Positions 3,868-44,340 of a DNA stretch of 64,000 nt are shown in pieces. Each line of letters opens with the position of its first letter. The stretch's first letter is position 1. Below the pieces are notes generated by a model, which saw only the letters and a program-made list of their open reading frames with translations, searched no databases and was not told where the DNA came from. A program made the position numbers and the translations under genes. The DNA is from Selenomonadaceae bacterium (GTDB lineage Bacteria; Bacillota; Negativicutes; Selenomonadales; Selenomonadaceae), in assembly GCA_017477125.1 (NCBI GenBank), contig JAFUXN010000083.1, positions 1 through 64,000 on the forward strand, read 5' to 3'.

Positions 3868-4172
3868 CTCAAAAAATTTATGACGGCTGATAAAATCATC
3901 GAAGCGGAGGAAGGAGTTCGGGCGGATAGAATAAAAAGGGCGCGCCGCCTTCCTCGCCGGCGGGCGCCCCTTCCTTTGGTTGACGTCCCAAAAAATTTAC
4001 GGTGTCTGATAAAATTATCGGGGGCGCGGAAAAGGTTCGGGCGGAAGAAATAAAAAGGGCGCGCCGCCTTCCTCGCCGGCGGGCGCCCGATCCTTTCGCC
4101 GTCTCCCTCAACAGTTGAGCCGCTGACCATGGTGAGGGGCGAGCCGCCCCGTGCGGGAGGCGGGCGCCCTTC
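3868..4172. repeat. Palindromic GC-rich repeat cluster downstream of metF
   Basis: This gene-free stretch holds two near-identical units of about 105 bp (3868-3972 and 3989-4093) and a third hairpin core (4135-4172). Each core has the form GGGCGnGCCGCC, a short loop, then GGCGGGCGCCC, an imperfect palindrome able to form a strong stem, flanked by T-rich or A-rich bases. The same core recurs at 32.5 kb and 43.3-44.3 kb. The cluster begins 10 bp after the metF stop codon, so it may act as a metF terminator or 3' RNA element. Open frames over it are repetitive and do not look like proteins. Confidence 0.85.
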
Positions 4173-8414: not shown

Positions 8415-9873
8415 TCATTCATAACGAATTGTAATTTTTATCCCATCATCTCTACCGTTTGTGGTTTTGGCAAAGCTGTTTTGGAATATCAACAGTGCCG
8501 GAAGACCATCTTGAGATTTTATCCGATAGTATCTGCTGACAATCGTATTTCCATCGATGTCCGGTTCATGAATATTGCCATACTCATGATTAAACGGTAT
8601 GGCTTCGTCAACGTAGTAAACATCATGAACGACACCGGGTTCAAAATGCCTGCTTTTTATGCCGCGCGGAGTCATGACAAAATGAGGAGAATCGCTCGAA
8701 GTCAGAATCACGACCTTGTTGTTTTTAAAACCGATTTTCATCGATACGTAGGTGAAAAGGAGCGTACCATCTTGAGTGGTTTCTTGCATTAACGGGTCGC
8801 CCATCTTTTTTATAACCGAATCATAAGCGCCCATACATAATTTTTTTACGTATCTCGGAGACATCGTAACCATGTCGAAACAGGTAATTGGCAATGATCT
8901 GCTCCTCTTCTGACAGATCGTTGAGATCATACTTGGAGCCGTCGAATGCCACGGATTTGTCGATTGCCTCAAACGGCGGACGCTGAATCGAAGGATTGTA
9001 TCTCTCATACAGATGCCACAGTTTATGCGTTCCAATGATACTTTCGAGTATTCCCTTTGTCTCATCGGATTGCATAAAAGCATCGTAGGTTCTTTTCTTC
9101 ATGATCGACATCTGATATGAGCTCGCATTTATTCTCAACGCGTAGACAAAATCCCCTTTGATGTAAAAGGTTTTTTCATTTTGAGAATAACTCTGAGTGA
9201 TATATCCGTCGTCACCGTAAAAACCCAAACGCCTCAAAATGTCTTTTGCCTCATCAAGTCCGCAGCCGTCGATAGCACGAATGGTGTCCGCAAAAAGTAC
9301 CTCGGCGTCTTCGAGCCTCTCGTAAATCGGTCTGGCTTTGATTTCTTTCTTCAATTCATCCAGGTTCTCGCTTCGAAACAGTTTTTTTTCTTCATCGGTG
9401 TTGTTTGAGATATATTTGGGAGTATCAAAATTGAATATGGTCATCGCAAAAGTCATGCCGTCGGTGTCATTATCAGCCCAGATAATGCCGTACGACAGAG
9501 AGTCTTTTTGAAAAAACATGTCACGCGTCGGGTTAAACTCATTGGCAATCAACTGCAGAATTTGAAGATTGGGCGGCGCAATGGCGTTATATCTCTGCAT
9601 GAACTGCTCGGCGTTTATCGATGAACCGGATTGCGTTAAAGCCTTATTGGAGCCTGCCGTTTCCACCAGCTCAATTTCATTCCGATTGCGTCTGCCGCCG
9701 TTTTTTTGTTCAACGGCAGGCTCTTCGAGCGTTTCAATGTCGGAAGTATCGGCGTCGACGTTGCTTCTTCGCGGCGCCACATTCTGTTGACCGGTGTCGA
9801 CAGGCTTATCTTCTCCGCACCCTGTGACGAGCATGCTCGAGATTGCAAGCAACGCAAATGCCTTTTTGAGCAT
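8415..9873 (-). pseudogene. Lipoprotein gene frameshifted at an A7 run
   Basis: The gene starts at 9873 with AGGAGG upstream and a lipoprotein signal (MLKKAFALLAISSMLVTGCG). The body is rich in charged residues and has no domain I recognise. Frame 1 ends at 8821 just after a run of seven A (minus strand; 8841-8847), giving RKKIMYGRL. With six A the protein continues RKKLCMGAYDSVIKKMGDP and runs on to 8415. That C-terminal part resembles the SmpA/BamE-like pattern of small outer-membrane lipoproteins (G.Y..V...MGDP), but this is only suggestive. Full length would be about 485 aa. The run could mark mutation, sequencing error or transcriptional slippage. It overlaps the 3' end of the RTX-like gene by 68 bp. 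Confidence 0.6.
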
Positions 9874-12846
9874 CGTTCAAGACCTCCTCGAAAGCGCCAA
9901 GCTCCTCACTCGACGGCTCGCTGATGATAGCATTGAGCTCATTGTTGCCGCTCGGCTCGTCGCCGCACATGAACCACGGCTCAATGCTGAAGTCGTCGCT
10001 CGCCAATTGACCGCTCGACGAGGAATTTCTCAACGGATAAGCCGTCGTCGACGTGAAGTTATAGGTTTTGGTATTGCCGTCGGCGTCGGTGATCACGATG
10101 TCCTTCTTCGCCGCCTTTTGGATCGTCAGGCTGCCGTTGGCGAAGTGCAGGATCACATTCTTCTTGCCGTCGACCTCCGCACGTATTACCTCGCCGCTCG
10201 TGATTTGGATCGAATCGGTCTTGGGCTTGAACTTGGTGATCACATCGTCGCCGTCGCCCGAACCGAAGTAAAATTTATCGGCGCCGCTGCCTCCGACCAA
10301 TGTATCATCACTCGAGCCGCCGCCGTAGAGTTTACTGCCGCCCTTCGACGCCGTGATCTTATTGTCATTGTCGTTGCCGATGATCGTAACAAATTTTTTG
10401 GTCTTCGAACCGTTGATGTCGGTGACCGTCGACGCATACGGCTTGGCATTGAACGTGCCCGAGAACGGATTTTTGAGCTGAATCTCCGTCATCTTCGAAT
10501 TGTAACTGACATTATCGGGCAGCTCATCGTCGGGCTCGTAATCGTCATAGAGGCTGTCACTCGGCAGGACGATCGAATCGTTGGTGAAGTCCTCATCGCC
10601 ATAGATGCGCGCCGACGTTTGACCCGCCGCGTTGATGATATTGATCGATTGATTTTTGGCATCGACGAGAGTGATCGAGCCGTCGCCGATCTTGAGAATG
10701 ACATTATCGCCGCTGATCGATGAGCCGGTGATATCGACCCCGACGAGCCTGATCCGATCGTCGGTCGCGTCGAAGTTTTGAATGGTGTCGTTGCCGTTGC
10801 CCGATGCGTAGAGGAACAGATCGGCGCCGTCGGAACCGATGAGAGTATCGTGCCCGCGCCCGCCGTACACGCTCGCCACGTAACCCGAGCCCACGGTACT
10901 CGATTGATTGATCTGAATGAGATCGTCGCGAGCAGAGCCGCGCACCAGAAGCCCGTCGCCCGCATAAGCATTGACGGTGTCGAGCCCGCCGCCGGTGTTG
11001 ACCGTGGCGCGCGAGGTGCCGCTTGCGACGGTGAAGGTGTCGTTGCCGATATTGCCTGCGGCGGTCTGATTGTGCTGAACGGTGATCGAGCTGCCCGAAA
11101 CGACGGTGGTCGGCAGGACGCTCGTGGCGGTGTCGTCGGTGAAATCTTCATTGCCGTAGACATGTGAAGTCGTTCGACCCGCCGCGTTGATGATCATGAT
11201 CGCATTGCCTCGAGCGTCGGGCACTTTGATTGATCCTTCGCCGATATTGAGAATGACATCGTTGCCGCTGAGCGACGAGCTGTCGACATCGCAATGCGTC
11301 AATCTGATCCGATCGGAAGTCGTGTCGAAGTTCCGAAGGATATCATTGCCGTCGCCGTCGGCGTAGAGAAATACATCGGCGCCGCTCGAGCCGATCAAAG
11401 TATCGTCGCCGCGTCCGCCGTAGACGGTTGCGACATCGCCCGAACTGCTGATGCTCGTCTGATTGTTGAGCTGAATGAGCTCGTCGCGAGCGCTGCCGAC
11501 CACGAGCAATTGATCGCCCGCATAAGCGTTGACGGTGTCATAGCCGCCCATCGTGTTGATCGTCGCATTGCGGGTGCCGCTCGTCACGACGAAAGTATCA
11601 TCGCCGAGATTGCCGGCGTATGCGTCGCTGTCGCTGACGTAAATCGAGCCGCCGACAATGTTATCGACGGGCAGGACGGTGGTGGAAGTGTCGTCAACAA
11701 AGTCCTCGGTCTCATAGACGCGGGAGGTCGTCCAACCTGCGGCGTTGGTGATGGTGATCTCCTTGTCCTTGGCATTGCGAATTCTGATCGAGCCGTCGCC
11801 GATGGTGAAGATCACATCGTTGCCGCTGATCGACGAGCTCGTGATGTTGCCGCTCGAAATTCTGATCCGATCCGCCGACGTGTTGAAATTATTGATGGTG
11901 TCGTTGCCGTCGCCCGCCGCGTAGAGGAACACTTCCGATCCGTTCGACGCGATGAGAGTGTCGTGCCCGCCGGCGGTGTTGAGCGTGGTTCGAGTGGTGC
12001 CGCTCGCGACGATGAAAGTGTCGTCGCCGAGATTGCCCGCGTACGCTTGACTGCTGTGCGCGTAGATCGTATCGGCGAGCTCCCCATCGGAATAATTCTT
12101 TGCAAACCACCTCATCATTGTGTAACCGACATAATCATATACATCTCCACCGCCAACAATATATTTCAATCCGTATTGTATGGAAGCGGGCAGAGATTCA
12201 AAGTAGGGGATGTTGGCTCCCAACGCCAACTCGGACAGCTCATTGTGATCGTCATGTTGATCGTCGAAGGACGTCCGAGATCATTTGAGACCGTCCACCT
12301 CACAGGCTCATAGCCATTGCTTTTTATGAACGATAAATTTATTGTGTTGGTGCTTGCCCTCCCGTCAGAAAAATTAACCCCGAGCGACTCTTGGATCAAA
12401 GCAAGAGACTCGGGAACCCACCAATTATAGAGCGCTTTGACGACGCGCTTCTGCTCGTTGATATAGTTTTGAGGAGTGTAGTCGTATGCTTTACCAACCT
12501 GATCGTTCGTCTGCTCGTGATAAGTGATGTTGAACGTCAAGCCGTTGCGCGTAAACGAATTGTATTGAGCGTCGGTGAGATTGACCGCCGCCGTCGCCTC
12601 GGGAATGATCGATTTAGCGGTCTTGGTCGTCGTGCCGCCCGCATCGGAACCCGTGATCGCTCCCGTGTCCTCGTTGTTGCGTCGAACGCCCGACGCTTCC
12701 TCACCCGTTTGATAACTGTTGCTAAGCACGTTGTAATTCTCGATGCCGAACTGCCGCAGCGCTTGCGTCACCGCCTCCGTTCCCGTCGTCGACGATGTTG
12801 TGAGCAACTCGACGAACCGCCTGATGGTTCCCACCGGTGTGGACAT
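9806..12846 (-). pseudogene. Frameshifted RTX-like calcium-binding repeat protein
   Basis: An ATG at 12846 (AAAGGAGAG upstream) opens a frame beginning MSTPVGTIRRFVELL and running to about 12235. The long second frame, one base out of phase, reads ELALGANIPYFESLPASIQ and continues to 9806. A single missing base near 12255-12262 accounts for the break. The second part holds about three long imperfect repeats of about 190 residues, each with GNLGDDTF, GGxDT, YGGRGDDTLIGS and GDGNDTI motifs, typical of secreted calcium-binding beta-roll proteins exported by type I systems. There is no signal peptide, as expected for that route. The N-terminal 230 residues are unfamiliar. Whether the shift is real or an error is unresolved. 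Confidence 0.65.
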
Positions 12847-12916
12847 AAACATCTCTCCTTTCATAACCAAAGTTCGTTTGATTGTGTTTGATTGCGTCTT
12901 TGATTATATCAGAAGC

Positions 12917-12970: not shown

Positions 12971-15900
12971 TCAGCGCTCGAACCGAATGGTCTTCGCCTT
13001 CAATTGTTGAGCGTTGTCGGCGAGCGCTTTACGTTCGGGCTCGGGTATTCCGTTCGGCACCCGACTCTCGATCACAAATTCCAATTTCACCTCCGCATCG
13101 TCCAAGCTCATCAGTATCTCAACGATCTCGTCCATGCACCGCTCGACGTCTCGTCGCGCTCGATCGATTCCTACGTCCAACGTCACGGTGAACCTCGTCG
13201 GATCGGGCTCAACATATTCTTCCGTTTCATCGATCGGCTCCGGCTCCTCCGTCGTGTCGTCAACCGTCACATCATCGTCCGCGCGGAGTTGAGCTTCAGC
13301 CTCCTCTCGTCGCACCACCAGCTCATCAAGCGATCCGATCTCGATCGACTGCCCGAATCTCAAATCCGCATATTCGCCCGTAAGCTCGTCAAAGTGATCC
13401 GCCAGCCCGAAAAATCCCTCGAGCACCCCCTCGCGCACCGCGTCCATCAACACCTTACGATCATACAGCCGCGGCGCATACAGATATTGAGTAAAGTACT
13501 CCCACAGATCGCGCAACGTCACCCGCGGCGATCGCTTGAATAAATGCTTGTCAAGCTCGTTCGACAGCGTCCCCGCCGAGTAGGTTCGCACCACCGTTTC
13601 GAAATCCGTCAGCCTCTTGGTCAACGCATCGATGTTATTCATTTGCGCACACTGCAGATCAATCGCGCGCCAATCGATCTCCCGATCCGTCTCCTCTATC
13701 AACGTCGGCTCGATCAACATGCAATACGCCATCGATATCTGCGTCTTCACGCTCTTGTCGAGATCGTTGACGTTCTTCTCAACCTCCTCGATCTGCTTGC
13801 GATCAAGATTGCGATCCTCCCGCTCGTCCGATAACTTTGTCCACGCCATCAGCCGACGTTGCAACTTCTTCAGCGAATCGATGCCCGCCTTCTCGCCCGC
13901 CAAGAACAACAGCATATTTTTGTTTCGACGGATCGTCCCGTCCTTGCATTGGCTCAATATCCGCTCCGTCGCCTTGAAATATTCCGCCTGCGTCCGTCGA
14001 GCGAACGGCAACGACGGCGGCGTCACTATCAACTGCACATACGGTTCATCGGGTACCTTCGAAGGCTCGACGGTGATGAGCTTCTTCTTGAACAAATGGC
14101 TGACGTTGATTTCTTTCTTGATCCGCTCGACCAGATACCAATCGACATCGTCCGCGCTGATGTTCTGCTCGAGCTGCTCCGCCACCTTCCTCAACGTCGG
14201 GCGATTGTCGAACCAACTGTGCGTCTCATTCGAGTACATGTATATCAGATTGCTCTTCAACGTAACCAGCATGTCTCTGAACTTCGACGAGCTCTCGGAC
14301 GGCATCAACACCCCCAACATGATCTGTTTCTGATCGAGCCCGCGCACGTTTTGCCCTCGAGCCGTCGGCGCACTCCCCATGAAGATCGTTCGCGTCAACC
14401 GTCGCGCCACCTGCATCTGCAGTTTTTGAGCGTCGTTCTCCAAGCGTCGCGGCTCCGAATCCTTGCCGTCGATCTCGCTGTTGATGATCGCCGACCAATT
14501 GCTCGGCAGATACCTCACCAGTTCATTGCTCACGTCCGACTCGCTCAACGGGATCGACCCGGGCATGATCATCGGGTGCTTGTCGCGGTACGCCCACAGC
14601 TTGTGCACGATCTTCGCCATCAATTGAAGTACGCCCCTCGTCTTCTGAAACGTCTCGATCGTCGCCCAACGCTCATACAACAGATCAAACAGTTGAGGAT
14701 GAATCGGATAGCACGCCTTCAGCCGATTGACATACCGAACCTCGCGCGTTTGGATCGGAAACGTCTGCTTGCCCTTCCGATACATCGTCGCAAACGCCGC
14801 GCATATCTCGTCGCGCTCCTTCTCTCGACGACACGGTTGAAACAATCGGCGCCGCACGATCTCAAAACTCTCATGCGCCTCGACGGGACTCCACACCGAT
14901 TGCAACCGTCCGAAATGCTTCTCGATCGTTCGAAGGACTTCCCGACCGCCGTCGCCCTCTCCGATCTCAATGTCCGATTGCGGCAACGATACTACCAACA
15001 TGCTCCTCGCGCTCAACTTAACCGCTTCCGCCAACTCATGCAGGAAGTTGATGAAAGCATCGTACCTGCCGCTCGCGATGTTCGCCTCGGTGTATAACTT
15101 CTTGCCGTACTCAACCAGCTCGTCCATCAAGATCAAGCACGCCCCGCAACCGTCGAGGAATAATCGCAATGCACTCGTGCCCGGCGATACTCCCTTCTCG
15201 TCGTTCAATTGTATGTGCTCGCGATAGAGATCAAACTTCCCCGCCGCTCGAGCCAACTGCGAAAATATCTCGCCCATCAACGTATGCGCCTGCACGCCCT
15301 CGAGCTCGGCAATGTCCTTCGCGCGTTCGGTGTTGAGGTCGGTGCCCACCACCACCGCGATGCAAATGTCCTCGGGCATGTCTTTGATCTGCGCGTCGAT
15401 CAACAAGTCCTGCACGCTCTTGTCGACCTTCAACGGATTGTACCGACGGTTGAACAGATGATACAGCGCCATCATCGAATGCGTTTTGCCGCCGCCGAAC
15501 GACGTCTTGACTTCGATGATCGGCTCGCCGTCGCCGTTGACCAACCGATCGATCGCCTCCATCAACAGCCGACGCATGCCCGCCGTCATGTACGTTCGAT
15601 TGAAAAACTCCGTCGCGTCCTGATATTCCGATCGAGTGCTCATGCCCGCCGCCACCTGCGCCAGATCGGCGGCGAAATCCGATTGCTTGCTCGTGCCGTT
15701 GCGGACGTCGGCGTTGGGCTCCATGATCTCACACCAGCTCGGGTAATCGCCCTCGACTTGGAAGAACAATTGATCGTCGTCGTCGGGCGTATCGATCGGG
15801 TGTTGAGCTTGAAAGCGTTGAAGTTGAGCGCGGAGCTCTTTGGCAGCCTCCTCGTCGATCGGATTACAGAACAACGACATGGTATCGAGCGCGCGCATGA

Positions 15901-16267
15901 CGTACGCATCGTTGAACTTATCGAGCTCGGTATGCGCCCAACAGTTTCGGATCGTCACCAGCTCGCCGAGCCAAGCCTTCTGCGCGTCGCTCATCTTATC
16001 GCGGAAGAGCTCCCGCCAATTCTTATTGATGACGATCGAACACAGCGGCACGTCCATGGCATTGGTGAACGTCTCGTAATTGCCGGCGCGGGGCAGGTTG
16101 CGACGTTGATCGGGCATCAGCACGTCGAGCACGCCGCGTTGCCACCAGTCCGCTCGATAATACTTCGACAGCGTTTGACCGACGAAGCCGGCGAGCAAAG
16201 GCAGCAGCGTGTTGTTCATCGCGCGCCCGACCGTCTCATGGTTCTCTCTCAAATTGTCATTGCTCAT
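12971..16267 (-). CDS. HEPN-DUF499 ATPase of a putative anti-phage module
   Basis: This 1098-aa protein matches the COG1483/DUF499 ATPase family found in defence islands beside DUF1156 methyltransferases. The N terminus (about residues 1-150) looks like a Swt1-type HEPN domain, with R107-N-C-W-A-H112 matching the RxxxxH catalytic motif of HEPN RNases. The ATPase part has TSFGGGKTHS (Walker A, K261) and LILMDELVEYGKK (Walker B). The long middle and the acidic linker before the C-terminal 80 residues have no domain I can name. ATG 16267 overlaps the hepT stop by 11 bp and is chosen because the conserved sequence begins there. It is the last gene of an operon after the DUF1156 gene, mntA and hepT. 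The role in phage defence is inferred from family context. Confidence 0.85.
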   Translation of the reverse strand: MSNDNLRENHETVGRAMNNTLLPLLAGFVGQTLSKYYRADWWQRGVLDVLMPDQRRNLPRAGNYETFTNAMDVPLCSIVINKNWRELFRDKMSDAQKAWLGELVTIRNCWAHTELDKFNDAYVMRALDTMSLFCNPIDEEAAKELRAQLQRFQAQHPIDTPDDDDQLFFQVEGDYPSWCEIMEPNADVRNGTSKQSDFAADLAQVAAGMSTRSEYQDATEFFNRTYMTAGMRRLLMEAIDRLVNGDGEPIIEVKTSFGGGKTHSMMALYHLFNRRYNPLKVDKSVQDLLIDAQIKDMPEDICIAVVVGTDLNTERAKDIAELEGVQAHTLMGEIFSQLARAAGKFDLYREHIQLNDEKGVSPGTSALRLFLDGCGACLILMDELVEYGKKLYTEANIASGRYDAFINFLHELAEAVKLSARSMLVVSLPQSDIEIGEGDGGREVLRTIEKHFGRLQSVWSPVEAHESFEIVRRRLFQPCRREKERDEICAAFATMYRKGKQTFPIQTREVRYVNRLKACYPIHPQLFDLLYERWATIETFQKTRGVLQLMAKIVHKLWAYRDKHPMIMPGSIPLSESDVSNELVRYLPSNWSAIINSEIDGKDSEPRRLENDAQKLQMQVARRLTRTIFMGSAPTARGQNVRGLDQKQIMLGVLMPSESSSKFRDMLVTLKSNLIYMYSNETHSWFDNRPTLRKVAEQLEQNISADDVDWYLVERIKKEINVSHLFKKKLITVEPSKVPDEPYVQLIVTPPSLPFARRTQAEYFKATERILSQCKDGTIRRNKNMLLFLAGEKAGIDSLKKLQRRLMAWTKLSDEREDRNLDRKQIEEVEKNVNDLDKSVKTQISMAYCMLIEPTLIEETDREIDWRAIDLQCAQMNNIDALTKRLTDFETVVRTYSAGTLSNELDKHLFKRSPRVTLRDLWEYFTQYLYAPRLYDRKVLMDAVREGVLEGFFGLADHFDELTGEYADLRFGQSIEIGSLDELVVRREEAEAQLRADDDVTVDDTTEEPEPIDETEEYVEPDPTRFTVTLDVGIDRARRDVERCMDEIVEILMSLDDAEVKLEFVIESRVPNGIPEPERKALADNAQQLKAKTIRFER

Positions 16268-16658
16268 GTTGATCTCCTTGGTCGTAAATGATTGCTTCCT
16301 CCTCGAGCTCCGCGCGGAGGCTCCGACATCTCGCATTGAGCTCCGGCACCTCTTTGCGCATGATCGTCCACAAACTCTTCTTCTTGACGGAAGCATAATC
16401 ATGGAAAATCCGATTGCGCAACCCAATAATCTGACGCCACGGCACATTGGTATGCACGGCTTTAAATTCTTTCGTCAGCTTGTTGACGTGCTCACCGATT
16501 TGCCCAACATAAAATGCACAGGCATCAAAGACCGTCCGATGTTCTTGAATGTCAAACCGATCGTAGTCGTCATCGAAAGCCATCAACGCATTCTCGATCG
16601 CATCGCAGTAGAACACGATCCACTTGAGCATGTCCTTATCATTGAGCGTATCCGTCAT
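16257..16658 (-). CDS. hepT: HepT-like HEPN ribonuclease toxin
   Basis: The 133-aa product belongs to the HepT/DUF86 family: an all-helical HEPN protein with the catalytic motif R81-NRIF-H86-D-Y88 (RX4HXY). HepT cleaves RNA and is held in check by its nucleotidyltransferase partner MntA, which adds AMP to the tyrosine of this motif. The gene overlaps mntA by 20 bp and the DUF499 gene by 11 bp, showing translational coupling within one operon. Finding this pair between a DUF1156 methyltransferase and a DUF499 ATPase suggests that it guards, or is a component of, the surrounding defence cassette. Confidence 0.9.
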   Translation of the reverse strand: MTDTLNDKDMLKWIVFYCDAIENALMAFDDDYDRFDIQEHRTVFDACAFYVGQIGEHVNKLTKEFKAVHTNVPWRQIIGLRNRIFHDYASVKKKSLWTIMRKEVPELNARCRSLRAELEEEAIIYDQGDQHEQ

Positions 16659-16938
16659 AGATCAGTACCTCGTTCTCCTGCATGTATCGACGCGATCTCT
16701 CACGAACGTCGGCGCGATCAATCAACGAGATCGGCACCCCCAAACTGTCTTCGAGATCGATGTACACTCCGCCATATTCCCAACCATGGAACTCGCCGCC
16801 CTCGATGCAAAGATCAACATCGGATTGCTCGTCCGCCTCCCCGCGCGCGTACGACCCGAACAACCACATTCGATCGATCTTGTAGTGCTCGCAGATCGGA
16901 CGCACTCGCTCTTTGATCTCCTCTATCGTCAACATCAT
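16639..16938 (-). CDS. mntA: MntA-like minimal nucleotidyltransferase antitoxin
   Basis: This protein of about 99 aa is a minimal nucleotidyltransferase with the GSX10DXD motif: G28-S29, then D40 and D42. In characterised pairs MntA AMPylates the HepT active-site tyrosine and neutralises it. The start at 16938 follows GGGGGTGACG; a second ATG at 16935 is equally possible, while longer in-frame starts run into the preceding DUF1156 gene. It begins 16 bp after that gene's stop and overlaps hepT by 20 bp. The GSYARGEADEQSDVDL stretch and pairing with HepT make the call secure. Confidence 0.9.
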   Translation of the reverse strand: MMLTIEEIKERVRPICEHYKIDRMWLFGSYARGEADEQSDVDLCIEGGEFHGWEYGGVYIDLEDSLGVPISLIDRADVRERSRRYMQENEVLIYDGYAQ

Positions 16939-16954
16939 CGTCACCCCCAATCGA

Positions 16955-19660
16955 TCACATGTCAAGCGTCTGCTGCTCCTGAGGTCGTTCCGCCTTCGCA
17001 CGCTCCTGCCTCAAGACCGTCAGGATCAGCTCCCACACCTCGACGATCCGCGCGTAACCCTGCGCCTCCTCCGTCCAATGCTTCTGATCCGTTATGTTAT
17101 ACATTCGATAGGACAGCCGTTTCACCGCATCCAACTTATCCCCGTGCTTGATCAACAAGTTCTTCACCGTGTACTCCACGCCCTCCTCGAGCAACCAGTA
17201 AACCGTTCTCTGCATCAACGACCACACGCAACTGCCCGCGTCCTCATCCGTCAGCTCCTCCCGATTGAGCAGTCGAACGATGCCGCGCCCCGACTCGATC
17301 ACTCGCGCATCGCGCAGCCTCGTCAACGACACGTTCTTGGCAGTCGACAACAGTTGCGCCGACCCGAATTTGATCTCGTCCCAACCCGTCTGCTGATACA
17401 GCGCCACGCAGAATTTCGATTCGTTGTCGAGCTCGGTATCTTGACTGTTGAGGAAGTCTTCGAGACCTTTGTTGATCAGCATCAACGCACTTCGAACGTC
17501 GATCAACCGTCCGTCGCCTCGACGCACCTCCGAATATCGAGAGTAGATTTCCATGCCGGGACCGATCGCCGCTTGCGACATGTCCACGGGCGACAAGTTT
17601 GCACTCTGCAGACGCTCGAGCTTCCCGCCCAACTCAAAGCTCAACTGTTGGAAGAAACGGTTGTAGCCGCAGGGCTCCTTGGGCGCGGGCGGCTTGCGAC
17701 ACACTATCACTATCGATGTCGACAGCGAATTTGTATCCATCGCGACTGATCTGGACATCATTTCAGTCCGAACGGGCCACGTCCCGACGATGATAAAGCC
17801 CGCGTCGATGATCGACCGCAACAAAGTCTCCCAACCCGCCGACAATCGATCGTCGTCAGCCTTGGCATCGTCCTGTTTATAAGCGTAGTAGATCGAGATC
17901 GGATAATCGACCGTCGACGCATCATAAATATTTTTGAGCGCCACACGCATGCCGTCCTCGAAAAACTTCCGCGCGGAGTCCTTGCCGCCATGTCGATAGG
18001 GATTGGAGATCAATTCTTCGTCCTTTGGAGGGCTCATTCTCATCAGCAGTCGCGGATAAATTTTTCGGATCGAGCGACGTAACCACACATAAAAAAAATC
18101 CGATAGGTCGGCATAGCTGACGTTATCATAATAGGGCGGATCGGTCGAAATGAGTACATTCTCCATCTTTATACCCTTCAACACATCCCCCTGATCAGCC
18201 GTCCCGATTATTTTTCTGTTGAAGGAATATGCTTCCGAACTCAACGTTCGGAGCATATTCTTTAAAAGGACATCGAGAGAACCGGAAGATGATGAAAAAG
18301 GATTGCCTTCAGCGAAATCCCAAACCATAGGGATTGATTGTCTGGCAAAGAGATCTACAGGACATTCGACATCCGCTCTCCAACGACCGAGTGAGTTACA
18401 GACATTGGCGAGTTTGTCAATGGCGAAGGCGAGGTAGGTGGTGACGGCATTGGCATATTCTTTATCGTCGGTATCAACAATGACTTCATCTCTGACGGTT
18501 GAGATCAGATCGCTGAAGGTCGTCAGCGCCGTCAACTGCCTGTTTGTAAAGAGTTGATGAAATTCATTGAAGCCATACAGAGAAACGTTTGCTCTCGCTT
18601 TGCCGCAAAGTTCTCCCTCGGGATAATCTTCGGGCTTGGGAACGTCGGCGGCTCTCACGTGCTCGTCGTTGGGCTCGAGATATATCCTGCCGCCCTTGCC
18701 CTCGGCAACGATCGCCATCAATCGAGTGCCCAACCGTCCCGCCTTGCCCGCCGCTCGTATGTGCTCAAACTTGATCACCGAGCCGCAGTGAATGCATTGC
18801 GCTCCCGACCGACTTATCGTCCCGTCGAACGCCTTGCCGCCCTTCTCGAGCTTCTCAACCTCAAACCTGAAATCGTTGCCTTCGATGATCGGGCGCACGC
18901 TGACGTTCTGCTTCTTCGACAGCACAAACGAATGCACCAGCGGCGTCGTGCAACCGCACACGGGATTATTGCATTGAACGGTGCGCGCCCAAATCCACGC
19001 GATCACCGTTGCCTGCCGACCGTCGACCGCAACCGTCGGGTACATCGAGCCGATCCGTTCTGCCGCCAATGCCTTCAGCCTTCGACCGTAATACTCGACA
19101 TCAACAGCGAGCCCTTGAGCGCCATGCCAATCGGTATCGTTGCCGAATGTCTCATGAGCGTTCGGATTGCGCGGAGGTTGATCCTTGAATCGCGCGGGCA
19201 GTTCGATCATCGACTTGTTGATCAGCACGGCGACGGGGTTGAGATCGGTGGCGTGGGCGTGCAGCCCCAACCGTTGAGCCTCGAGCGGGATCGTCCCGCC
19301 GCCCGCAAACGGATCGAGCACGTGCGGCAATGCGTCGCCGGCGCTCAACTTCATCTCCTTCATCGCTCGACCGAGCACTTCTGCGTTCGACGAGTTCTCC
19401 CATTGCACCAGCTCGACCATGAGCTTGAACAGTTGATCGCGCTTCTGCTCTTGGAGCTCAACGGTCGGATACAGATCGGGACGATCGAACGGGTCATCGA
19501 CGATCGACGCAAACAAAACGGCGCGAGCGGTTGCCAACGGACGTCGCGCCCACCATAAATGAAGCGTCGAAGGGTGTCCGTGGCGTATCGATTTCTCTCT
19601 TGCCGACGCCTTGTTAATCTCCTCCAGCGGGATCGCCGCCTCTATCAGTTTCCTCGCCAT
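16955..19660 (-). CDS. DUF1156 adenine-specific DNA methyltransferase
   Basis: The 901-aa protein matches the COG1743/DUF1156 family. The conserved N terminus (IPLEEINKASAREKSIRHGH, then LHLWWARRPLATARA) is followed by the SAM-binding motif VLDPFAGGGT (114-122), a probable zinc ribbon with paired cysteines in CNNPVCGC and CIHCGS, and the catalytic DPPYYDN motif at 507-513. Such enzymes are predicted to methylate DNA amino groups and mark self DNA in defence modules with DUF499 ATPases. The start at ATG 19660 is preceded by GGAGGAG at good distance; the upstream TTG would place the RBS inside the gene. It is first in the four-gene operon ending at 12971. No helicase, nuclease or DUF3780 gene is nearby, so the module is compact. 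Confidence 0.87.
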   Translation of the reverse strand: MARKLIEAAIPLEEINKASAREKSIRHGHPSTLHLWWARRPLATARAVLFASIVDDPFDRPDLYPTVELQEQKRDQLFKLMVELVQWENSSNAEVLGRAMKEMKLSAGDALPHVLDPFAGGGTIPLEAQRLGLHAHATDLNPVAVLINKSMIELPARFKDQPPRNPNAHETFGNDTDWHGAQGLAVDVEYYGRRLKALAAERIGSMYPTVAVDGRQATVIAWIWARTVQCNNPVCGCTTPLVHSFVLSKKQNVSVRPIIEGNDFRFEVEKLEKGGKAFDGTISRSGAQCIHCGSVIKFEHIRAAGKAGRLGTRLMAIVAEGKGGRIYLEPNDEHVRAADVPKPEDYPEGELCGKARANVSLYGFNEFHQLFTNRQLTALTTFSDLISTVRDEVIVDTDDKEYANAVTTYLAFAIDKLANVCNSLGRWRADVECPVDLFARQSIPMVWDFAEGNPFSSSSGSLDVLLKNMLRTLSSEAYSFNRKIIGTADQGDVLKGIKMENVLISTDPPYYDNVSYADLSDFFYVWLRRSIRKIYPRLLMRMSPPKDEELISNPYRHGGKDSARKFFEDGMRVALKNIYDASTVDYPISIYYAYKQDDAKADDDRLSAGWETLLRSIIDAGFIIVGTWPVRTEMMSRSVAMDTNSLSTSIVIVCRKPPAPKEPCGYNRFFQQLSFELGGKLERLQSANLSPVDMSQAAIGPGMEIYSRYSEVRRGDGRLIDVRSALMLINKGLEDFLNSQDTELDNESKFCVALYQQTGWDEIKFGSAQLLSTAKNVSLTRLRDARVIESGRGIVRLLNREELTDEDAGSCVWSLMQRTVYWLLEEGVEYTVKNLLIKHGDKLDAVKRLSYRMYNITDQKHWTEEAQGYARIVEVWELILTVLRQERAKAERPQEQQTLDM

Positions 19661-19744
19661 GCCATCACTCTCCTCCAAAAAAATTATCGCCCGCCGCCCG
19701 CCCTGCTGTTCAATCGTTGTAATGTCCCTTGCAGGATTTGATAA

Positions 19745-20269
19745 CTATGGTATCATTTTCGATTTTGTTCGGGTGAGAAGGTGGTATTCTCCATTGATCA
19801 ATGCCTCCATTTCTGCATCACTCACGACTATAGCATTGCCGGCGCGGATATCGGCTTCGCTCTCATCGAGCTCGACGAGGTACTTGGCGTTGTTGAAAGC
19901 CTTGAACGGCGACTTGGTCTTGATCTCCTCGACGAAGTAGTTCCACTCTTCGGGGGTGAGGTCAACGGTGTCGATGCCGGGCGACTTATCGCCGCACGGG
20001 ACGTAGGGATACTGAGGCGTTTCGAACTCGCGCGGCGGGTTGGTGATCTTGGTGAGGATTTTTGCTCGACGGAGTGCGTCCAATGGAGATTTTGTTTTGA
20101 GCTCCTCAACGAAGTAGTGCCACTGTTGGGGCGTGATAATGACGGTGTCGACGCCCGGGACTTTGGTAAAATCCTCGAGCTCCTTCTCGGTGACGGTGAT
20201 GAGCTTGCTGCCCTCGACGGGCTGCTCGACGTTCTCGATCGGTTGATTGTTCATTACGTTCGGTTTCAT
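19745..20269 (-). CDS. Unknown protein with an internal duplication
   Basis: I do not recognise this 174-aa protein. It contains two copies of a unit of about 35 residues: PGVDTVIITPQQWHYFVEEL with KTKSPLDALRRAKIL, and PGIDTVDLTPEEWNYFVEEI with KTKSPFKAFNNAKYL, near residues 38-72 and 96-130. There is no signal peptide or membrane segment. AGGAGG stands well placed before ATG 20269. It lies 84 bp upstream of the DUF1156 gene and 32 bp downstream of a RelE-like gene, all on the minus strand, so it may belong to the defence operon or to the toxin-antitoxin locus. Its acidic, Trp-containing repeats could be protein-binding modules, but that is a guess. Confidence 0.65.
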   Translation of the reverse strand: MKPNVMNNQPIENVEQPVEGSKLITVTEKELEDFTKVPGVDTVIITPQQWHYFVEELKTKSPLDALRRAKILTKITNPPREFETPQYPYVPCGDKSPGIDTVDLTPEEWNYFVEEIKTKSPFKAFNNAKYLVELDESEADIRAGNAIVVSDAEMEALINGEYHLLTRTKSKMIP

Positions 20270-20301: not shown

Positions 20302-20580
20302 TCAAATATAACCGTGTTTTGCCAAACGTTGTTCGGCATCTATATAAACTTCATCGTCCGCGCGCATTCCTACAATGACAACAATCATCTTTGTTTCGAT
20401 TCTGACCAAACGATAGACAATGCGGATTCCCGAAGCCTTAAGTTTGATCTTAAAATTGCCGGCGAGTTTGCCTCCGAGAGGATGCCCGTAACCTCCTTCT
20501 GTGGTTGGCAACGGATTTTGACTGACCTTATCTATTGCCTTGTTGACTTGAGCAATCTGACTGCCGTCGAGGTTTTTCAT
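20302..20580 (-). CDS. RelE/ParE-type toxin
   Basis: The 92-aa protein has the pattern of RelE-superfamily mRNA interferases: a helical N terminus (QIAQVNKAIDKVSQNP), a central KLAGNFKIKLKASGIRIVYRLVR strand pair with conserved basic residues, and a final strand ending in VGMRADDEVYIDAEQRL. These toxins cut mRNA on ribosomes when their labile antitoxin is lost. The gene follows a putative antitoxin gene by 38 bp on the same strand, antitoxin first as usual. AAGGAC precedes the ATG. The pair sits upstream of the DUF1156 cassette, a common place for such modules. Confidence 0.8.
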   Translation of the reverse strand: MKNLDGSQIAQVNKAIDKVSQNPLPTTEGGYGHPLGGKLAGNFKIKLKASGIRIVYRLVRIETKMIVVIVGMRADDEVYIDAEQRLAKHGYI

Positions 20581-20618
20581 GTCCTTTTTGACCTCGGAAA
20601 AGAATTCTACTGCTCAAC

Positions 20619-20930
20619 TCATTCGATTTCAACGTCTCCGACCGCATCTAAATCCGATTGTTTAACTCCGAGCTCCTTGAAAAACTTCTCGGCAGGGATC
20701 AGTTTGTTTGAATCAAGAGTAGCCCAACGTTCTTGCGCGATTTCCGACAGACGTTCGTCTTCGATGAGTTCGACAAGTGCTTCGTGCATGGCGGCAGTTA
20801 TGACGACAAACTTAGTCTTATCGACTTCGACAGCCGCCGGTCGATTGGTACGTTTAGCGATGTCAAACGCCGCCCTGACTTCGTTGAGATCGAAATCTTC
20901 ATCATCAACGGGTTGCATGATCGGTTGCAT
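20619..20930 (-). CDS. Antitoxin of the RelE-type pair (Phd-like)
   Basis: The 103-aa acidic product sits directly upstream of the RelE-like toxin and has the layout of a prevent-host-death type antitoxin: a short beta region with RPAAVEVDKTKFVVITAAMHEAL (cut here for length by its core VVITAAMHEAL) followed by helices rich in Glu and Leu that would wrap the toxin. It likely represses its own operon as well. A strong GAGGAGGA lies seven bases before ATG 20930. The gene starts 17 bp after the cupin gene's stop, so the three may be co-transcribed. The antitoxin assignment rests mostly on position and general pattern. Confidence 0.65.
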   Translation of the reverse strand: MQPIMQPVDDEDFDLNEVRAAFDIAKRTNRPAAVEVDKTKFVVITAAMHEALVELIEDERLSEIAQERWATLDSNKLIPAEKFFKELGVKQSDLDAVGDVEIE

Positions 20931-32520: not shown

Positions 32521-32905
32521 GGCGTCCCACAATGTTTTTCAGCCCCTAAAATTTTTGGGGTATCAATCGGGAGGGGCGAGCCGCCACGCGAGTAGGCGGG
32601 CGCCCATCCTTTCACCGTCGACCCAAAAATTTTGTCGCCCTCCAATCGTTGAGCCGCACACCTGGCATTGGGGCGAGCCGCCGCGCGAATAAGCGGGCGC
32701 CCCTATCTTTCCCCGCGCCCCAAAAATTTTGTCGCCCTCCAATCTTTGAGCCGCACATCGAGGATTGGGGCGAGCCGCCACGCGAACCGGCGGGCGCCCC
32801 ATTCTTTCACCGCACCTCAAACTTTTGCCGCCCACCAATCGTTGAGCTACACACCGAGCATTGGGGCGAGCCGCCGCGCGAACTGGCGGGCGCCCCCAAT
32901 TTTAT
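32521..32905. repeat. Four-copy palindromic repeat array downstream of serA
   Basis: The gap of 485 bp between comEA and serA holds four hairpin cores of the GGGGCGAGCCGCC / GGCGGGCGCCC type, centred near 32590, 32685, 32785 and 32880, with a period of about 97 bp. The spacers share CAAAAATTTTGTCGCCCTCC and AATCGTTGAGCCGCACA. The array ends 17 bp from the serA stop codon. A related hairpin (GCGTCGCCGTC region) precedes it near 32480. There is no gene here. Confidence 0.88.
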
Positions 32906-43292: not shown

Positions 43293-44340
43293 CGGGCGCA
43301 CCGCCCGCTCAGTAGGCGGACGCGCCCTCTTCCTCACTGATGCCCTTAAAGTATCGGTCGAGCTCAAAAAATTTATCGATGGTTGAAGAAGAAGGGCGAG
43401 CCGCCCCATTAGGGAGGCGGGCGCCCCTTTTTCCTCCGTCACCCCAACCGTTGAGACGCCGACCACGATCAGGGCGAGCCGCCCCCATCGGGAGGCGGGC
43501 GCCCGATTTTTTCACCCGTCACCCCAACCGTTGAGCCGTCGACCATGATCAGGACGAGCCGCCCCCATCGGGAGGCGGGCGCCCTTTTTTTCATCGTTGC
43601 CCCAACCATTGTGCCGCTGACCATGAGCAGGGCGAGCCGCCCCATTCGGGAGGCGGGCGCCCATTTTTTACACCGTTACCCCAACCGTTGAGCCTCCGCT
43701 TATGATCAGGGCGAGCCGCCCCATGCCGAGGCGGGCGCCCTAAATTTCACCGTCGCCCCAACCGTTGAGCCTCCGCTTATGATCAGGGCGAGCCGCCCCA
43801 TTCGAGAGGCGGGCGCCCGATTTTTTCACCGTCGCCCCAACCGTTGTGCCGCTGATCATGATCAGGGCGAGCCGCCCCCATCGAGAGGCGGGCGCCCTTT
43901 TTCCACTGTCGCCCCAACCGTTGAGCCGCTGGTCATGAGCAGGGCGAGCCGCCCCCATCGAGAGGCGGGCGCCCTTTTTTACACCGTTACCCCAACCGTT
44001 GAGCTTCTGATCATGATCAGGGCGAGCCGCCCCATTATGGAGGCGGTCGCCCGATTTTTCACCGTCGCCCCAATCGTTGAGCTTCTGATCATGGGCAAGG
44101 CGAGCCGCCCCCGTCGAGAGGCGGTCGCCCATTTTTTCATCGTCGCCCCAATCGTTGAGCTATAGACCATGGGCAGGGCGAGCCGCCTCGAGCGAGAGGC
44201 GGGCGCCCCTTTTTCCACCGTCGCCCCAACTGTTGAGCTTCTGATCATAATCAGGGCGCGCCGCCCCATCGGTAGGCGGGCGCCCTTTTTTACATCGTCG
44301 CCCCAACCGTTGCGCTTTGATTTTTTCCACCGTCGCCCTA
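43293..44340. repeat. Thirteen-copy palindromic repeat array downstream of ahcY
   Basis: The 1.1-kb gap between mtaD and ahcY is almost wholly a tandem array of about 78-bp units. Each has the core GGGCGAGCCGCCCC, 5-7 bases, GGAGGCGGGCGCCC, then a T run and the linker CACCGTCGCCCCAACCGTTG AGC with a variable TGATCATGATCAG tail. Cores lie near 43393, 43471, 43550, 43628, 43707, 43784, 43864, 43941, 44020, 44098, 44177 and 44252, plus a diverged first copy at 43293. Cores and linkers are both conserved, so it is not a CRISPR array. It ends 4 bp from the ahcY stop codon. Open frames inside are repeat translations. Confidence 0.92.

Follow-up and report, generated by a model that had tools for sequence, protein, structure and literature searches.

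An Hma-type methylase–ATPase operon with a HepT/MntA pair and without the HmaA helicase in a Selenomonadaceae bacterium

The stretch of DNA analysed here (the window) comprises 64,000 nucleotides of a Selenomonadaceae bacterium (assembly GCA_017477125.1, contig JAFUXN010000083.1, positions 1 to 64,000 of the forward strand). On its minus strand, read from 19660 to 12971, four intact open reading frames (ORFs) follow one another in the order HmaB, MntA, HepT and HmaC, and the evidence supports a defence-type operon in which a class I HepT/MntA pair is combined with a methylase and an ATPase bearing a HEPN domain. The preferred reading, held with evenly balanced confidence, is that this is a helicase-less variant of the anti-phage system Hma [Type-1 BREX-related (BR)] in which the response would probably be RNA cleavage and growth arrest. 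The pair occupies the hmaB–hmaC junction, which is a cassette slot that in related operons repeatedly holds other toxin–antitoxin (TA) or effector genes.

As described by Payne et al. (2021; PMC8565338), Hma is encoded by three genes in one operon, for a helicase, a methylase and an ATPase. Systems of this kind were named Type-1 BR in a 2026 BREX survey (PMC12839542), which also treats HEPN, HEPN–MNT fusions, Schlafen and PIN as auxiliary effectors at loci of BREX and related systems.

Operon layout and protein families

The features were assigned from ORF calls, profile matches and motifs as follows.

16955..19660, minus strand: HmaB-type DUF1156 DNA methyltransferase, 901 amino acids (PF06634, PADLOC HmaB, motifs)
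16639..16938, minus strand: MntA-type minimal nucleotidyltransferase, 99 amino acids, predicted AMPylating antitoxin (PF01909, GSX10DXD)
16257..16658, minus strand: predicted HepT-type HEPN ribonuclease toxin, 133 amino acids (PF01934, RX4HXY)
12971..16267, minus strand: HmaC-type DUF499 AAA+ ATPase, 1098 amino acids, with an N-terminal Swt1-like HEPN domain (PF18731, PADLOC HmaC)
19683..19712, minus strand: promoter-like site directly 5' of hmaB (weak consensus, 9/12 matches)

The gene content and order proposed in the initial annotation were confirmed. MntA and HepT overlap by 20 bp and HepT and HmaC by 11 bp, just as that annotation had it; the coupling by overlap does not extend to hmaB and mntA, which are separated by a 16-bp gap. 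No minus-strand promoter-like site was found between the one at 19683..19712 and hmaC; the eight promoter-like sites observed in the region are not significant when compared with 5.0 in shuffled sequences.

HmaB matched Pfam DUF1156 (PF06634) with E = 8e-28 and the PADLOC HmaB profile with 952 bits over residues 3–900 of 901. Motif I (DPFAGGGT, at 116) and motif IV (DPPYY, at 507) are intact, and no PDB entry reached E 0.1 in a sequence search. The order of motif I, a variable region and DPPYY suggests an amino-methylase. On the methylase chemistry two of the cited papers are at odds (m5C versus N6-adenine).

In HmaC, residues 21–138 correspond to HEPN_Swt1 (PF18731; E = 1e-20) and residues 177–1097 to the PADLOC HmaC profile (794 bits). 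The protein carries the HEPN motif R107-NCWA-H112 and GGGKT at 258; the HEPN sequence, RNCWAHTEL, has no tyrosine at the HxY position. The AlphaFold model (mean pLDDT 83.8, pTM 0.57) was aligned over residues 176–687 with BrxC of Acinetobacter BREX (9zll_D) at Z = 17.4 and 4.1 Å over 436 residues using VIA-align, ahead of ORC/Cdc6 at Z = 13.3. The modelled core would accordingly count as BrxC-like in the sense of a common fold, which is not proof of function. The whole model had no Foldseek match at E 0.001 or better and the sequence no PDB match at E 0.1 or better. The motif R107-x4-H112 had been pointed out as a particular feature of this ATPase; it is present, but its being unusual was ruled out, since 72 of the 77 HmaC N-terminal extensions in the surveyed Hma loci have it and an N-terminal HEPN domain is reported on Type-1 BR ATPases of 1370 taxa (PMC12839542). 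The fusion of HEPN to a DUF499 ATPase had already been noted in 2013 (PMC3710099).

HepT matched the HepT-like family PF01934 (E = 9e-16) with an intact R81-x4-H86-x-Y88, and MntA matched NTP_transf_2 (PF01909; E = 5e-12) with an intact GSx10DxD at 28, so that the identities originally given to both proteins stand. In the PDB sequence search MntA matched 1wot_A, a 'putative minimal nucleotidyltransferase' (E = 1e-6); for HepT no entry reached E 0.1. The NCBIfam scores (HepT 26.6 bits, MntA 40.4 bits) are both below the 60-bit cut-offs of NF047751 and NF047752, which places the two proteins, as judged from sequence, as relatives outside these narrow equivalogs. The combination of a PF01934 HEPN protein with RX4HXY and an upstream adjoining PF01909 MNT with GSX10DXD points to a class I HepT/MntA pair. 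With these motifs, class I is a demonstrated RNase/AMPylator pair in Shewanella oneidensis; MntA adds three AMPs to the RX4HXY tyrosine, blocking the RNase, and class II partners (PF05168) are without the RX4H motif (PMC7641770).

Within the genus, a HepT match was present in 29 of 66 genomes. All 11 of the loci examined outside the window have an MntA neighbour, and neither hmaB nor hmaC was found near them within the fetched 1.5 kb. Among the genus matches listed, identity peaked at 40%, in an alignment of 55 residues, and was 39% for the closest good match. Because HepT–MntA pairs in the genus are common, stand-alone and at most 40% identical among the matches listed, the window pair was probably recruited from this common stand-alone stock.

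Like Hma (PMC8565338), the window has full-length HmaB and HmaC, with B preceding C; unlike Hma, it has no HmaA helicase, and MntA and HepT stand between B and C. It shares with Type-1 BR systems (PMC12839542) the DUF1156 methylase and the DUF499 ATPase with its N-terminal HEPN and BrxC-like core and differs from them by having no helicase-nuclease effector; the window also has separate MNT and HEPN genes between methylase and ATPase, which are not among the auxiliary effectors named in the accessible portion of that survey. The Swt1/Abi2-family HEPN fused to a DUF499 AAA+ domain in an R-M-like operon recalls the DUF499/methylase/helicase operons of 2013 (PMC3710099), except that those have a separate helicase subunit and none was seen in the window. 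Compared with class I HepT/MntA (type VII; PMC7641770), the families, the motifs, the antitoxin-first order and the overlap of the genes are the same, whereas the window pair is embedded in a defence operon and lies below both NCBIfam cut-offs. In contrast to BREX, with which it shares the BrxC-like fold of HmaC, the operon is without PglZ (no match to this phosphatase among the four operon proteins in Pfam and PADLOC). A stand-alone DUF3780 was likewise not matched among the four proteins (Pfam, NCBIfam and PADLOC), which sets the operon apart from the Type-2 BR systems to which DUF3780 is assigned (PMC12839542). The initial annotation had expected DUF3780 and extra helicases as companions, an expectation that does not hold: DUF3780 belongs to Type-2, and the normal third gene, missing here, is HmaA. 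The strong PADLOC matches of HmaB and HmaC and the missing HmaA went beyond that annotation.

Several further features surround the operon. Upstream, window positions 19745-20269 encode a 174-residue protein that has no Pfam family above cut-off and in which a segment around W-x-Y-F-V-E-E-[LI]-K-T-K-S-P occurs twice. Positions 20302-20930 hold two genes (103 and 92 amino acids) that form a TA-like set with a weak ParE-like match (E = 0.055). On the 3' side of hmaC, positions 9806-12870 encode an 807-residue protein with Gly/Asp-rich repeats that are RTX-like by eye (Pfam: DUF6383 only) and a 234-residue ORF with a sub-threshold flagellinolysin match. A family of intergenic tandem repeats with periods of 78–119 bp occurs at window positions 3870-4096, 32573-32896 and 43393-44312 and on locus L016 from ~19290 to 20000, at the end of contig C91 of this genome; their GC-rich inverted core, with runs of T behind it, resembles, by eye, repeated hairpin or terminator elements.

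The missing helicase and a second methylase gene

HmaA was absent from the operon and from the whole assembly of the window genome (G000; 2.9 Mb, 91.5% complete) in searches with a single query and with a 12-row profile, by which a copy hidden nearby or elsewhere in the assembly was ruled out; it could lie in the unrecovered ~8.5% of the genome. As a control, the 12-row profile matched at E below 1e-200 in seven of the nine other genomes given [G005, G014, G015 (partial), G019, G020, G034 and G058], and G010 and G038 gave distant helicases only. The genus has eight genomes with hmaB and hmaC (G000, G005, G010, G014, G015, G019, G020 and G034), two of which lack HmaA: G000 and G010, the latter with intact hmaBC. 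Where the sequence extends 6 kb or more upstream of hmaBC, 58 of 62 loci have hmaA: it is on the same strand in 57, and L091, where it had been missed since the hmaB ORF starts too early, makes the 58th; the hmaBC loci without it are the window, L021 (G010), L081 and L240. Because HmaA was searched for and not found, the window is not classed as a complete Hma member.

A second hmaB in the same genome (contig C91; L016 16470-19169) is 85% identical to that of the window (16955-19660), and the homology is confined to the gene and its ribosome-binding site. Identity is 86–100% over residues 1–350 and 89–100% over 655–901; it falls to 70, 52 and 32% over residues 351–400, 401–450 and 451–504, and is 78–82% over 505–604 and 68% over 605–654. 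The mosaic suggests a changed or swapped target-recognition region. The overall dN/dS between the copies is ~0.25. No hmaC, MNT or HepT was found within the 831 bp 3' of the C91 gene, where the contig ends in repeats; a clear ParE toxin (L016 16163-16636; E = 1e-9) lies immediately upstream of it. Solitary hmaB-type genes in matching neighbourhoods were also seen in L025 and L026 (G038 and G058), with no hmaA or hmaC around them in the 18 kb fetched, and are possibly conserved orphan methylases.

The junction between hmaB and hmaC

Loci with hmaB were collected from named genomes (80) and from further genomes, and stretches around them were annotated with profiles. Removal of two duplicates and, for weak HmaB scores, of 13 out of 144 loci left 131 Hma loci. 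In 108 of these hmaB and hmaC are on one strand, with a gap of <100 bp in 71, 100–250 bp in two and at least 250 bp in 35. MNT genes are inside the operon in seven of the 131 loci, five of them among the 108 hmaB–hmaC pairs, window included, and are placed as follows.

Between hmaB and hmaC: the window, L048 (Acidiferrimicrobium), L060 (Rubrobacter), L103 (Pseudomonadota MAG; MNT only) and L222
Directly 3' of hmaB, at the contig end: L044
Between hmaA and hmaB: L219

The MNT is accompanied by a PF05168 HEPN protein in L048, L060 and L219. In L222 the HEPN partner is weak, the profile match (22 bits) being to no more than a partial ORF; the window alone among the MNT-carrying Hma loci has a PF01934 HepT partner. 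Since PF05168 partners lack RX4H (PMC7641770), the window pair would fall in the better-proven class, unlike those of L048, L060 and L219. Each gene of the L048 series hmaB–mnt–hepn–hmaC overlaps the next, as read from the junction sequences. The initial annotation had named the absence of HepT/MntA from all related loci as the outcome that would speak against it; instead, MNT is found inside six other Hma operons, in four of them with a PF05168-type HEPN partner, one being the partial ORF just mentioned. A HepT remnant after the L103 MNT looked likely by eye but was not significant (E = 0.05; no match in a second search), and an apparent HmaB–MNT fusion in L222 was set aside as it sits behind a frame change in hmaB.

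A profile of 17 MNTs (mostly genus stand-alone pairs, four from other slots and one from the window) found no MNT–HEPN pair in 779 kb of flanks and only a CBASS-type SMODS protein in L059. With interval totals of 68 kb for hmaB–hmaC and 87 kb for hmaA–hmaB, the binomial probabilities (3e-6 for seven of seven MNTs in operon intervals, 9e-7 for six of seven at the hmaB–hmaC place) serve as a guide only, as loci were treated as independent and some profile seeds came from the slot itself. On a quick HmaB tree (131 proteins, LG+G4) the seven MNT rows need about six changes, six being forced by well supported branches; MNT has therefore been repeatedly gained or exchanged at Hma loci rather than inherited once. 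HmaA is present in five of the six MNT-carrying loci other than the window (L103 has only 2.5 kb upstream), which rules out replacement of HmaA by HepT as a general rule.

The survey of the other cargo took in 36 non-window loci whose gap is at least 250 bp, weak-score loci included, and 34 of them supplied its 73 same-strand ORFs. AAA_21 was matched by 11 ORFs, PIN by four, MNT and Schlafen AlbA_2 by three each and HEPN, MqsA, MqsR and YhcG nuclease by two each; some of these loci are near copies (L215/L216; L234/L237/L245 are alike by ORF sizes). Same-strand flank ORFs served for comparison: of the 259, 145 were drawn at random, and no family occurred in more than three of these. The 25 flank families listed out of 105 include TIR_2 (three), MqsA (two), AbiEii (one) and SMODS (one); PIN, AAA_21 and NTP_transf_2 are not among these 25, and each could occur once. 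Gene types seen at the junction comprise PIN, MqsRA with SecB, DUF433/DUF5615, Phd with HNH, AAA_21 and Schlafen.

Ten plasmid records were examined out of 59 with a match, and none of the ten contained an MNT or HEPN above 60 bits. Thermus plasmid pVV8 (T. thermophilus HB8) has HicAB between hmaB and hmaC and hmaA nearby on the opposite strand; on the plasmids of Gloeocapsa and Chlorohelix a four-helix-bundle gene lies between hmaB and hmaC. At the pVV8 locus (L262 6794-15960), which is in a culturable host, a Fic gene overlaps the start of hmaB, hmaA is inverted upstream and two HTH genes accompany HicAB before the HEPN-bearing hmaC; it would lend itself well to testing the slot idea. A search of open-access articles, including the text of PMC12839542, brought up no report of an MNT–HEPN or other TA cassette at the hmaB–hmaC junction.

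Mode of action and alternative explanations

In the proposed mechanism HmaB would methylate a site in host DNA, probably at N6-adenine, and so mark self, and HmaC, as a BrxC/ORC-like AAA+ protein, would likely sense, or load onto, foreign DNA that is unmodified. Because HmaA is gone, the HEPN RNases are plausible effectors; the response would most likely be RNA cleavage and growth arrest through the HEPN domain of HmaC itself, with HepT as a back-up RNase. MntA would normally silence HepT via AMP on Y88 of RX4HXY, and HmaC or phage attack would release HepT from this brake. That modification status controls RNA cleavage, as had been suggested initially, is a reasonable guess. The helicase-less reading draws on the HmaB and HmaC matches, the BrxC-like model, the intact motifs, the gene overlaps, the recurrent MNT at the junction, the proven class I pair of S. 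oneidensis and the absence of HmaA, which is also missing beside the intact hmaBC of G010; counted against it is that HepT is no regular replacement for HmaA, and the sequences gave no sign of a contact of HmaC with HepT or MntA.

The main rival, which is possible although on balance doubted, makes HepT–MntA a passenger or guard addiction module that landed in the junction and has no role in phage sensing; it would stabilise the defence operon or kill the cell once the operon was lost or shut off. A passenger role is possible because stand-alone pairs are so common in the genus, and the junction accepts many unrelated TA and effector types (PIN, MqsRA, DUF433/DUF5615, Phd with HNH, AAA_21, Schlafen and HicAB). 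The overlap with hmaC and the concentration of MNTs at the junction rather than in the flanks suggest instead that co-expression matters, although both would also fit a guard.

It is improbable that the locus is a decaying Hma system in which hmaA has been lost, hmaBC persists as a modification or remnant module and HepT–MntA prevents its deletion. The absence of HmaA from G000 and likewise from G010, the second hmaB with no adjoining hmaC before the contig end and the broken hmaB and partial HmaA of the genus mate G015 would agree with decay, but none of the window's four ORFs is broken, their motifs are conserved and the dN/dS of the hmaB copies is ~0.25 overall. Far less probable still is that MntA AMPylates mainly the HEPN domain of HmaC, one antitoxin restraining both RNases, as might be read from L103 (an MNT between hmaB and a HEPN-hmaC with RNSWAH, no HEPN gene being detected beside it): the window HmaC lacks the HxY tyrosine to which AMP is attached in HepT, a HEPN-HmaC is found without an MNT at most Hma loci, and L103 may hold the non-significant HepT remnant.

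An extension of the helicase-less reading, put forward as rather unlikely speculation, is that the junction is a socket for interchangeable cassettes under a BrxC-like ATPase, into which here an AMPylation-gated RNase came in place of the lost helicase-nuclease, with methylation status as the trigger. If this were true, a DNA-degrading defence would have been turned into an RNA-cleaving abortive one. The trigger of HepT/MntA has been termed an open question (PMC7641770), and confirmation would provide a candidate physiological trigger for this very abundant TA pair. It would also mean that swappable effectors can be under the control of DUF499 (BrxC-like) ATPases and that signalling in Hma and BREX-related systems could be tested by cassette exchange.
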